The notes under the pieces: generated by a model
What the model saw: only the letters and a program-made list of their open reading frames with translations
What the model was told of the DNA's origin: nothing
Databases searched by the model: none
Made by a program: the position numbers and the translations under genes
In this document: positions 21,757-38,439 of the stretch, in pieces
How the letters are laid out: each line of letters opens with the position of its first letter
How positions within the stretch are numbered: the stretch's first letter is position 1
Assembly (NCBI RefSeq): GCF_012911005.2
Contig: NZ_WTVS01000023.1
Coordinates: 1-64,000, forward strand
Direction: 5' to 3'
DNA: 64,000 nucleotides
Source: Aromatoleum toluolicum
GTDB lineage: Bacteria > Pseudomonadota > Gammaproteobacteria > Burkholderiales > Rhodocyclaceae

Positions 21757-21785
21757 ATGATGTAATGGAACTACAAAAAACGCAA
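21757..21785 (-). promoter_or_regulatory. zwf promoter with HexR-like operator in the spacer
   Basis: On the minus strand, TTGCGT (21785-21780), a 17-base spacer and CATCAT (21762-21757) form a promoter. The palindrome TGTAATGGAACTACA at 21761-21775 fits the HexR form TGTARTWWWWYTACA apart from the middle bases. It lies across the spacer and -10, so binding would block polymerase. Confidence 0.7.
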
Positions 21786-21959
21786 GTAGAAAGATGCGCC
21801 GTGGTGGGAGGGGTTTCTTGGCGGATAGGATGTTGCGAGTGCGTTATGAAAGCTGTTATGGATTGGGTCAAGTCAGTGTAAATAGGCAGTATTGGCATGA
21901 TGCGGTGCAGTACGACGATGGTTGATAAGGCGGAGTTTGTTATCCGGGCACAAAAATGT

Positions 21960-21989
21960 TTGCGTTTCTTGAAGTAGTGGAACTACACT
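21960..21989 (+). promoter_or_regulatory. Glucose ABC operon promoter with HexR-like operator
   Basis: TTGCGT (21960-21965), 18 bases, TACACT (21984-21989). AGTAGTGGAACTACA at 21973-21987 is one base off the HexR consensus and overlaps the -10. It is followed by CTTCG, as at the porin promoter (38411). The substrate-binding protein gene starts about 107 bases downstream. Confidence 0.7.
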
Positions 21990-22096
21990 TCGATTCAGTT
22001 TCAGCCGATATCCCCTGCCGGTGCCGAGCGCACCTGCAGCGGGCGGAAAAAATCAATCGCGCCTCTGGAAGGCCGGGAATTGGAAGGAGATGACAC

Positions 22097-35869: not shown

Positions 35870-36966
35870 GCGGCTACCAGGAAAGTGCCCGCGCAGCGGC
35901 GGCCGGGGCTCCGGCAGCGGACGAACGGCGGCTGCGGATCGGGGTTATCGGCCTGGGGATCGGGCGCATGCACATCGAGGGCTGGCGCCGGCATCCGGCG
36001 GTCGAAGTGGTCGCGATCGCCGATACGGATGCGGCGCGTCTCGCCACCGTCGGCGAGCAGTTCGGCATCGTTGCGCGCTACACCGATGCCGAGAAGATGC
36101 TTGCCGTCGAGGATCTCGATGTCGTGAGCGTATGCACGCCGAACAAGTTCCACAAACCGCTGACGATCGCCGCGTTTGCAGCCGGTTGTCACGTGCTGTG
36201 CGAGAAGCCGATGGCGATGAACGCCGACGAAGGGCGCGAGATGCTGGCTGCCGCGCGACGCGCCGGCAAACGCCTGATGATCAACTTCTCGTACCGCTTC
36301 AGCGCGCAATCGCGGGCCCTGAAGGCGCAGGTCGATGCGGGACTTTTCGGTGACTTCTACTTCGGGCGCTCGGTGTGGCACCGTCGCCGCGGGCTGCCCG
36401 GTTTCGGCGGCTGGTTCGGCACGAAGGCGCTTGCGGGCGGCGGGCCGCTGATCGACCTCGGCGTGCATCGTCTCGACCTTGCGCTGTGGTTGATGGGGTA
36501 TCCCAAGCCGGTCTGGGTATTGGGCAGCACGTATGATCCGATCGCGCGGGAGCTCGCGGAGAAGTCCGGCAAGCGTTTCGACGTCGAAGACTTGGCGGCG
36601 GCGCTGATCCGCTTCGACAATGGCGCGACGCTCGTGCTCGAGGCGTCCTGGGCGGCGAACATCGGCGAGGCGGAATTGATGGAAACGCGTCTGCTCGGTA
36701 CCCGGGCAGGATTGTTGCAGCACAACCTCGACGAAGGATACCGATTCGATGCCCATGTGTTCACCGAGCAGAACGGTGCGCAGTTCGACCTGCACCTGCA
36801 TCCGCCGACTGGCGATGCGCCTTCGGCGATGCATGAGTTCGCTGCGGCAATCCTCGACGAGCGGCCCCATCCTGCGAGCGGAGAGGAGGGCCTGATCGTG
36901 ATGGAGATCCTCGACGCGATCTACGCGAGTGCCCGCAGCGGCGAGCCGGTGAGGATCGCCGCATGA
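35866..36966 (+). CDS. thuB: ThuB-like Gfo/Idh/MocA dehydrogenase
   Basis: A 366-residue NAD(P)-dependent oxidoreductase with dinucleotide motif GVIGLGIGRMHIEGW (near residue 25), the lysine motif CEKPMAMNADEG and GGGPLIDLGVHRLDLALW. Its place after thuA, with ATGA overlap, supports the ThuB role: oxidation of trehalose or a related disaccharide toward 3-keto sugars. Sequence cannot exclude other sugars or polyols. Its stop overlaps the start of the MFS gene. Confidence 0.8.
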   Translation: MSGYQESARAAAAGAPAADERRLRIGVIGLGIGRMHIEGWRRHPAVEVVAIADTDAARLATVGEQFGIVARYTDAEKMLAVEDLDVVSVCTPNKFHKPLTIAAFAAGCHVLCEKPMAMNADEGREMLAAARRAGKRLMINFSYRFSAQSRALKAQVDAGLFGDFYFGRSVWHRRRGLPGFGGWFGTKALAGGGPLIDLGVHRLDLALWLMGYPKPVWVLGSTYDPIARELAEKSGKRFDVEDLAAALIRFDNGATLVLEASWAANIGEAELMETRLLGTRAGLLQHNLDEGYRFDAHVFTEQNGAQFDLHLHPPTGDAPSAMHEFAAAILDERPHPASGEEGLIVMEILDAIYASARSGEPVRIAA

Positions 36967-38132
36967 GCACGGGGGCGGCGAACCTCGCTGGCGTGCGCGA
37001 TCTACCGCTGCGCCGCGCGCGCTGGGCGACCCGCGTGCAGTTCGCCGTCCTCGGCGTTCTCGCAGGAGCGTGGGGCGCGCACCTGCCCTCCGTCAAGCAG
37101 CGCTATGCGCTCGATGAGGCTGAGCTCTCCATCGTGCTGCTCGCGGCCGCTCTCGGTGCTGTGTCCACGCTGTTGTTTGCCGGCCGGGTGGTTGCGCGCT
37201 TCGGTGCCCGCCGTGTGGTGCTCGGGGGCGGGGTGGCGATGTGTGCGGCCATCGCGCTCGTGCTGGTGCTGCCCGGCTTCGCACTGCTGCTGCCGGTTGC
37301 GCTGGTGTTCGGTGCCGGGATGAGTCTCTTCGATGTTTCGATCAACAGCGAGGGGTCGGAACTGGAGCATCTCACGGGGCGCGCCATCATGAGCAATCTG
37401 CACGGTATGTTCAGCGTCGGCGGGATGGCGGGCGCAGCCGCCGTTGCGGTGCTGCTGCGGGCTGACGTCGCGCCTGCGGCACAGCTCGCGGGGATCGGCG
37501 CTTGGCTCGCTCTCGCGGTCGGCGCCGCGGCGCGGGGGATGCTCGACACGCATGCGGGTGGTGAGGGACAGGCTCACTTCGTCTGGCCGAGAGGCGTCCT
37601 GCTGCTGATCGGCCTGCTGATCCTGGCGGGCATGATTGCCGAAGGGGTGATGTACGACTGGTGCGTGCTGTACCTCAAGCAGGAGTTGGGGATGCCGCAG
37701 GCGGACGCAGCCCTCGGATACGCGGTGTTCTCGGCGGCGATGGCCCTGTCGCGTTTTGGCGGCGATGCGTTGCGCGAACGATTTCCCGAGCGGGTGGTGC
37801 TCCGTGCGGGAGCAAGCCTTGCGGCGGTCGCGATGGCGACCGTATTGCTGTCGGCAACGCCATGGGTCGCGCTGGTCGGATTTGTACTGGTGGGGGCGGG
37901 TCTCGCTCCGGTCGCACCCATTCTCTTCAACGCCGCGACCAGGGTTCCGGGCGTGAGCCGCGCCGCGGCTATTGCGTCGGTGACCTCCATCGGTTACAGC
38001 GGGTTCATGGTCGGGCCGCCGCTGATCGGCGGGCTCGCGCATGCCAGTTCGTTGACGGCGGCCCTTTCGGTCGTGGTCATCGGTGCCGCGCTGCTGGCCC
38101 TCGGCGCCGGCAGGATTTCCGCCAGAGACTGA
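36963..38132 (+). CDS. MFS transporter
   Basis: A 389-residue carrier with about twelve membrane helices. The N-terminal segment VLAGAWGAHLPSVKQRYALD and GMSLFDVSINSEGSELEHL resemble the YbjJ-like/FucP-distant MFS group. It overlaps thuB by four bases and is the third gene of the operon. It may import the ThuA/ThuB substrate or export a product. A relative of the same type is encoded at 51215 in the alpha-glucoside locus. Confidence 0.85.
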   Translation: MSTGAANLAGVRDLPLRRARWATRVQFAVLGVLAGAWGAHLPSVKQRYALDEAELSIVLLAAALGAVSTLLFAGRVVARFGARRVVLGGGVAMCAAIALVLVLPGFALLLPVALVFGAGMSLFDVSINSEGSELEHLTGRAIMSNLHGMFSVGGMAGAAAVAVLLRADVAPAAQLAGIGAWLALAVGAAARGMLDTHAGGEGQAHFVWPRGVLLLIGLLILAGMIAEGVMYDWCVLYLKQELGMPQADAALGYAVFSAAMALSRFGGDALRERFPERVVLRAGASLAAVAMATVLLSATPWVALVGFVLVGAGLAPVAPILFNAATRVPGVSRAAAIASVTSIGYSGFMVGPPLIGGLAHASSLTAALSVVVIGAALLALGAGRISARD

Positions 38133-38410
38133 TCGATTATTCGCGCGGGCGATGTTCCGAGCCCCCAAACGCGCCGTGCCAGCGCGTCGGAGAACGTCTT
38201 GGCCTTGTACCGGAAGCGCTTTCGGGAGGAAAGCGCCAAAGAAAGTTGTGTAGTTGGAACAAATACACATCCTCAGAATCGGCTTTAGGTTGATTCGATA
38301 AAGCCCCGAAAAATGCGCAAAAAACTCGATATATAGCGCTAACAGTATGCAATCCAGTATTTTCTGGCACGTCTCCTCAGCGGCTTCTTTGTGAAATAGA
38401 TACAAAGTAT
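38133..38410. other. Non-coding stretch before the porin promoter
   Basis: AT-rich compared with its surroundings from about 38230 on. No gene, strong hairpin or repeat was found. Confidence 0.5.
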
Positions 38411-38439
38411 TTGCACTCCGAAAGTAGCAATACTACACT
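38411..38439 (+). promoter_or_regulatory. Porin promoter with HexR-like operator
   Basis: TTGCAC (38411-38416), exactly 17 bases, TACACT (38434-38439). AGTAGCAATACTACA at 38423-38437 is a HexR-like palindrome overlapping the -10, and ACTACACTTCG is identical to the end of the glucose ABC promoter. The leader to the porin ATG is about 135 bases. Confidence 0.7.

Follow-up and report, generated by a model that had tools for sequence, protein, structure and literature searches.

A glucokinase-fused RpiR-type regulator beside a local glucose regulon in Aromatoleum toluolicum

The sugar locus and its fused regulator

A 64,000-nucleotide stretch of the Aromatoleum toluolicum genome (contig NZ_WTVS01000023.1, positions 1 to 64,000 of the forward strand; hereafter the window) encodes a protein of 626 residues in which a glucokinase is fused to a transcriptional regulator of the RpiR type (27912..29792, plus strand), and three promoters of the same locus carry a palindrome resembling the operators of the regulators HexR and RccR. 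The glucokinase domain (residues 23-331, 27978..28904, PF02685), with the motifs VNDFTA, SEGGH and ERFVSGPG, precedes an RpiR-type helix-turn-helix (HTH) domain that contains the recognition helix (residues 345-413, 28944..29150, PF01418) and a SIS domain (residues 466-593, 29307..29690, PF01380), in which the positions corresponding to the RccR contacts with 2-keto-3-deoxy-6-phosphogluconate (KDPG) are altered (H148Y, H164R and S188L, RccR numbering). In the alignment, a C-terminal tail ending in LVSHAS (29712..29789) replaces the helix that bears K270 and R277 in HexR and RccR. The catalytic motifs of the glucokinase family (NDF, EGGH and ER..SG) are all present in the putative kinase half of the fusion. 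They are also intact in most other fusions, some motif searches having missed on divergent sequences.

Two transcription units face each other's backs on one side of the fusion gene. On the minus strand, zwf1, which by family match encodes glucose-6-phosphate dehydrogenase (20252..21712), is followed by glk1, a separate glucokinase gene (19197..20273 as the open reading frame is listed; the true start may be internal). The two glucokinases of the locus (19215-20174 behind zwf1 and 27912-28925 in the fusion) are 55% identical. On the plus strand lies an ATP-binding cassette (ABC) transporter operon comprising a sugar substrate-binding protein, identified by family match and presumably specific for glucose (22097..23362), two permeases assigned from their sequence and operon position (23472..24416 and 24409..25287) and an ATPase that reads as MsmK/MalK-like (25323..26435). 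The third promoter belongs to a porin of the LamB family (38581..40122, plus strand, family match).

The regulatory half of the fusion has the HTH followed by a SIS domain, as in HexR (PF01418 and PF01380, residues 345-593), though behind a kinase, and it scores 232.6 bits with the NCBIfam model of the HexR subfamily (NF008451), below the cut-off of 296 bits. The architecture is that of NF010701, in which glucokinase, HTH and SIS domains follow one another; the fusion covers positions 13-606 of the 638 in this profile and reaches 899.3 bits, short of the curated cut-off of 920. When 300 genomes of the order were sampled, 27 matched the model; 20 of these have a true fusion and the other 7 an adjacent, unfused glk-hexR pair. 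Genome G301 (G, C and L denote genomes, contigs and loci) was first flagged as having a fusion and then counted as standalone, its two genes lying in different frames. In a midpoint-rooted tree of 100 regulator sequences (96 of them different, several on long branches), a branch with 100/99 support divides 38 fusion rows from all standalone regulators, E. coli HexR and RccR among them. The duplicate locus L048 = L056 (JAFEDJ010000070.1 = G094:C67) is counted twice among these 38 rows and in the half-site counts given below. The fusion does not group with HexR in this tree, and the view that it is simply HexR with a kinase attached is rejected on account of its separate clade. The HexR proteins of the unfused glk-hexR pairs group with the standalone regulators, and the tree is consistent with one old fusion event rather than repeated fusion of HexR.

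Three boxes and their distribution in the genome

The boxes lie exactly where a preliminary description of this DNA had placed them: at 21761..21775 in the zwf1-glk1 promoter (minus strand; TGTAATGGAACTACA, read on the minus strand as TGTAGTTCCATTACA), at 21973..21987 in the promoter of the sugar ABC operon (plus strand; AGTAGTGGAACTACA, recovered by genome scan and alignment) and at 38423..38437 in the promoter of the LamB-like porin (plus strand; AGTAGCAATACTACA). Against TGTAR-N5-YTACA the zwf box scores 10/10 and the other two 9/10 each. In their symmetric form, GTARYNNNRYTACA (type 1), there are four matches at three places among the 6,159,496 bases (6.16 Mb) of the 289 contigs of the genome, and all of them are the window boxes; type-1 boxes are not found at unrelated genes. 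The same pattern read backwards gives 86 matches. Within the window, matches to a looser form, GTARNNNNNYTACA, are likewise confined to the three box places. By chance, 0.03 matches to the type-1 form and 0.1 to the looser one would be expected per 64 kb (order-1 Markov model of the window, 60 simulated copies). The probability that a type-1 match arises at all is about 0.001 for the zwf/ABC intergenic region and about 0.0005 for the region upstream of LamB (4000 copies each).

As these sites were already known when the pattern was built, more weight falls on their conservation among relatives. The arms of the box form conserved islands, much of the flank being variable, in alignments of five zwf/ABC (or zwf/fusion) promoters and of eight LamB promoters. 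The arms of the zwf box are kept in four relatives aligned with the window while its centre varies, and the GTAG and CTACA arms of the LamB box recur in seven other aligned LamB promoters. The formula of the preliminary description, TGTARTWWWWYTACA, gives 40 genome matches with up to two mismatches (17 forward, 23 reverse) versus 32 in its reversed control (20 + 12), so that the boxes do not stand out from background by this formula alone. The two highest-scoring of these matches lie on contig C251 and not in the window. A loose genome scan returned 478 places versus 2088 in the reversed control, which was not taken as a null since it mainly reflects the rarity of TA-rich arms in a GC-rich genome.

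The three boxes match the 15-bp RccR operator TGTAGT-N3-ACTACA with one or two changes, and they include a palindrome of HexR type at zwf, in keeping with the zwf/edd sites of HexR. Their assignment to the HexR/RccR operator family is supported, the preliminary description having called them HexR-like. RccR also has a 28-bp form of its operator and the targets aceEF, aceA, glcB and pckA, whereas type-1 15-mers lie nowhere in this genome but at the window boxes. Upstream of each box a TTGCRY hexamer can be read by hand, as had been noted (TTGCGT at 21785-21780, minus strand; TTGCGT at 21960-21965; TTGCAC at 38411-38416), and the ABC and LamB promoters do have ACTACACTTCG in common. The hexamers are weak, and a consensus promoter scan of both regions did not find a sigma-70-like site; a -35 role, and the promoter assignment at the three boxes as a whole, is therefore putative, though helped by the conservation. 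The region upstream of the fusion reaches a best score of 6/10, which agrees with the earlier observation that its own promoter is free of a box. Altogether, the view that the three boxes mark one real local glucose regulon is supported.

Two of the boxes have a poorer companion. Upstream of the ABC box by 35 bp lies a degenerate second box (21938..21952, plus strand, TGTTATCCGGGCACA), scored by hand at 7/10 and reaching 9/10 in loci L046 and L047, and upstream of the LamB box by 33 bp a weak one (38390..38404, plus strand, TGTGAAATAGATACA; 8/10). Such pairs recur 33-35 bp apart, the 35-bp spacing being found again at edd/zwf2, and perhaps reflect binding of a tetramer. Examples at HexR-linked and fusion-linked promoters are L010 9222/9257, L046 4157/4192, L055 3046/3079 and L176 5619/5654; in L010 and L046, TGTTGA or TGTTAT forms a half-site in one member of the pair.

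Downstream of the porin lie a gene for a LacI-type regulator (40213-41451) and, in the region 41514-46207, two alpha-glucosidase/amylase-like genes from which it diverges, together with a gene for another sugar ABC binding protein (amylase and ABC names read from the sequence). The porin may serve maltodextrins besides glucose.

Two regulators and two classes of box

The fusion is, as far as can be seen, the sole RpiR/HexR-type regulator of the window, as had been claimed, and the claim ends at its borders. With a standalone HexR at C251:13011-13799, the genome has two RpiR HTH proteins in all. There the order zwf2-pgl-hexR-pgi is divergent from edd-eda-galM-like-pyk-gapN-eno (names read from the sequence), a cluster that HexR would be expected to accompany, and the intergenic region holds boxes of its own (GGTAGTAAATCTACA, TGTAGCAAATCTACA and TGTAGCAAGTCAACA). 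The argument from a sole regulator is incomplete for this reason. The cluster (G000:C251; L010 4300-17800) adjoins apparent pqqB/pqqC genes, named from their sequence.

To which regulator a box belongs can be approached by comparison. Boxes were sought in the 350 bp upstream of the zwf, edd, substrate-binding protein, LamB, fusion, hexR and pgi genes of the fetched loci, to which ten from the genus were added, and any sixth base was allowed in either half-site; this base was then counted per regulator, leaving out the LamB boxes. Fusions have a box nearby in 23 of 38 cases, with T at the sixth base in 48 half-sites, C in 16, A in 4 and G in 2. Standalone regulators without an alanine in the recognition helix are similar (box in 27/30; T 79, C 17, G 3, A 3), and those with the helix SQPT[VI]ARF prefer A (box in 23/24; A 68, T 21, C 14, G 3). 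Standalone regulators with SEPTVARF or TDPTIARF have a box in 6/6 cases (T 12, C 2, G 2), and the notion that the helix alanine alone sets the box class is ruled out by this group with its T, C or G.

The same division is seen within and between genomes. Three genomes of one genus in which the fusion is the sole RpiR protein (G007, G120 and G072) carry the box TGTAGTAATGCTACA at a shared zwf/edd promoter. The zwf2/edd boxes have A both in G044, where HexR is the sole RpiR protein, and in G115, which has three RpiR matches, one of them below the cut-off. In G426, G397 and G265 the zwf gene ahead of the fusion has TGTAGTTAAACTACA, and each HexR-edd box there has at least one A half-site; in the first two of these, with 7 and 8 RpiR proteins respectively, the assignment goes by proximity. 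Inside each of G000, G426, G397, G265 and G542 the classes are separate, every HexR-linked box having at least one A half-site and the fusion-linked boxes none. Mixed cases are G094, whose edd has both classes, and G086, where one HexR-linked box is without A. The two box classes thus appear to track two recognition helices, and the class seems to go with the regulator, not with the gene, which favours the fusion as reader of the window boxes.

A lead as to the contacts comes from a model of Pseudomonas putida HexR, which is reported to place Arg-54 and Arg-57 on the DNA (PMC5902321). The fusion helix contains RFCR, with two arginines three apart, and the second is missing in 22 of 24 alanine-helix HexR rows; this is a lead only. 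In two genomes (G421 and G333; L124 8677-8855 and L126 8796-8988) a divergent fusion with the helix SDPTIMRFCR has three TGTAAT-type boxes before itself and looks autoregulated, unlike that of the window.

Within the genus, 17 genomes could be compared: five have an intact fusion, two its kinase half only (G044 and G550) and ten none. The ABC binding protein occurs in four of the 17, all with an intact fusion, and LamB in nine, five with the fusion and four without (G540, G541, G547 and G548); the scan of the genus loci lists no box for G547. Genome G044 aligns with the window up to 19155, again over 27869-28970 and again from 29933. It is therefore missing 19156-27868, with glk1, zwf1, the ABC genes and their boxes, and separately 28971-29932, with most of the regulator half; between the two clean gaps the kinase half stays open (L067 8056-9156). 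LamB is missing as well, and zwf1 is missing at the locus, no search having been made elsewhere in this genome. This arrangement fits a joint loss of the regulator and its presumed targets, the kinase half working alone. In Aromatoleum toluvorans (L053 9992-11085; by its coordinates, the contig G550:C62) the kinase half alone is also left, with an end point that differs from that of G044, and a search of G550 for an RpiR HTH found none.

Signal, readers of the boxes and known systems

Nine residues of Pseudomonas aeruginosa RccR are reported to contact KDPG; in the mutants R152A, K270A and R277A, KDPG binding is described as no longer measurable, and in H148A and H164A, DNA binding as lost (PMC10810197). 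The aligned contacts read S H R H S S T K R in the HexR of contig C251 and S Y R R S S L in the window fusion, which is missing the K270/R277 helix. K270 and R277 are both retained in 0 of 38 fusions versus 58 of 61 standalone regulators (E. coli HexR included), and a tail with SH or TH within the last 30 residues replaces the helix in 33/38 versus 4/61, in an alignment that is uncertain in the tail region. Serine or threonine at 188 is found in 2/38 fusions versus 59/61 standalone proteins, and R152 in 38/38 versus 58/61; the truncated fusion of G353 was left out of these residue counts. With its C-terminal contacts gone and others altered, the fused SIS domain makes KDPG, which the preliminary description had implied as the inducer, a doubtful choice. 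Sensing of KDPG through the known contacts is unlikely on the alignment, and another phosphosugar, or a signal passed through the kinase half, would be the likelier alternative.

Considering boxes, helices and contacts together, the window most likely holds a real local glucose regulon that is read by the glucokinase-fused regulator and whose signal is probably not KDPG, a reading to which we assign a probability of roughly 0.65. Several observations count against it. Fifteen of the 38 fusions have no box nearby. Both LamB boxes of G543, and one of the two in G086, are A-type despite the presence of a fusion, and the many RpiR proteins of G426 and G397 loosen the assignments there. With a single origin of the alanine-helix HexR clade (94/88), the covariation of helix and box amounts to one event, and the TDPTIARF/SEPTVARF group and G383 share the helix alanine without having an A half-site. 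Genomes G540, G541 and G548, which lack the fusion and have only an alanine-helix HexR, still carry window-type boxes at LamB, zwf1 or glk1 (CGTAGCATTACTACA in G540 and G541; the intact AGTAGTAATACTACA, TGTAGTTTTACTACC and TGTAATTTTATTACA in G548); such boxes may be bound by HexR or be remnants of recent date. A strict one-to-one insulation, with T boxes for the fusion only and A boxes for HexR only, is weakened by these three genomes. Besides the uncertain tail alignment, the Y and R at positions 148 and 164 of the window fusion could also mean weaker DNA binding.

The fusion-less genomes bear on two other explanations. Both paralogues may bind the window boxes, competing or cooperating there and bringing two inputs, KDPG through HexR and another sugar phosphate through the fusion; this tentative possibility overlaps with the reading preferred here. 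It would account for the persistence of window-type boxes without a fusion, for the two classes at edd of G094 and the one box of each kind at LamB of G086, and the 33-35 bp spacing would fit tetramers bridging two sites, although type-1 boxes are only three in the genome and none is at the HexR cluster. That the C251 HexR, besides serving its own cluster, is the main reader of the window boxes, with the fusion secondary or directed to other targets, we consider unlikely. HexR is indeed the sole RpiR protein in G540, G541 and G548, where window-type boxes persist (intact in G548), and its boxes often have one T or C half-site and so overlap with the window boxes in sequence. However, the box class differs between the two loci of one genome, window-type boxes are kept in genomes with only the fusion, and G044 retains HexR, yet has neither the target block nor the regulator half. 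An unrelated local regulator, either the LacI-type one at 40213-41451 or one of AraC type at 33947-34909, is highly improbable as reader. Both lie within the same sugar cluster, but LacI-type operators have a CG-centred symmetry that the boxes do not show, and boxes of this family accompany RpiR regulators across several families of the order, in differing neighbourhoods. In Pseudomonas, moreover, the 15-bp TGTAGT/ACTACA site is reported to be bound by RccR (PMC5489143). The earlier proposal that the fusion reads the boxes is accordingly favoured by the comparison of genomes, although it has to make room for HexR as a possible further reader.

If the fusion is the reader, the boxes would be operators of a glucose-entry regulon comprising outer-membrane porin, sugar ABC transporter, glucose-6-phosphate dehydrogenase and glucokinase, and we infer binding, repression, induction and division of labour as follows. 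In the absence of sugar the fusion would occupy the spacer and -10 region of the three promoters as a repressor and keep porin, ABC transporter, zwf1 and glk1 low. Once glucose enters and is phosphorylated, a phosphosugar on the SIS domain would release the fusion; the obvious candidate is an early intermediate such as glucose-6-phosphate, the product of the fused kinase itself. The lower Entner-Doudoroff cluster would be left to the separate standalone HexR, which has the KDPG contacts, stands beside TGTAGA-type half-sites and would follow KDPG, and which may also touch the window boxes.

A broader and rather doubtful extension of this idea is that fused regulators form a distinct RpiR branch with DNA reader and signal-making enzyme in one protein. 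They would have kept the ancestral HexR/RccR operator and given up KDPG sensing, the helix turning into a short, mostly SH-ending tail, to report an early sugar phosphate such as their own glucose-6-phosphate. Standalone HexR would have kept KDPG, one clade shifting from TGTAGT to TGTAGA half-sites and thereby insulating the two circuits at least partly. If the fusion does report a signal other than KDPG, two paralogues in one cell would divide glucose metabolism between them, as an entry module and a lower Entner-Doudoroff module that answer to different signals. The fusion would then show, more directly than is usual, an enzyme supplying the transcription factor to which it is joined. An operator split by one base pair per half-site beside a helix change would also make a clean and testable case of regulator divergence.

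Databases already name the architecture: NF010701, described as a bifunctional transcriptional regulator/glucokinase, has the same domain order and matches over nearly its full length. A bifunctional glucokinase-HexR of Paraburkholderia xenovorans is named as the glucokinase step in a figure legend (PMC12568896). A literature search, with subscription papers and RegPrecise outside its scope, did not find a regulatory study of the fusion.

Among characterized regulators, HexR of P. putida, E. coli (YebK) and Shewanella is alike in its RpiR HTH and SIS domains, in its palindrome at zwf/edd and in its glucose and Entner-Doudoroff target genes. In contrast to HexR, the fusion has an N-terminal kinase, is without the K270/R277 contacts and sits across the 100/99 branch. 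KDPG is reported to release repression by HexR in Pseudomonas (PMC5902321, PMC5489143), the P. putida site is given as TTGT-N7/8-ACAA (PMC5902321), and HexR regulons are described across many proteobacterial groups (PMC5343134). RccR, a twin of HexR with a 15-bp TGTAGT/ACTACA consensus bound in Pseudomonas, is reported to control aceEF, the glyoxylate shunt and gluconeogenesis (PMC5489143). RccR of P. aeruginosa and P. fluorescens resembles the window system in this operator and in having a HexR twin in the same genome, whereas the fusion differs from it at H148, H164 and S188 and is missing the K270/R277 helix. The best solved relatives are PDB 8ju9 and 8k3b, the former being probably RccR, since its sequence, counted by hand, fits the published numbering of the seven contacts as far as residue 188. 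More distant is SpNanR, reported as an RpiR activator of sialic acid genes that forms tetramers on spaced half-sites (PMC12713135); it shares the HTH and SIS domains with the window fusion and differs from it as an activator, in its target genes, in its box and in being without a kinase.

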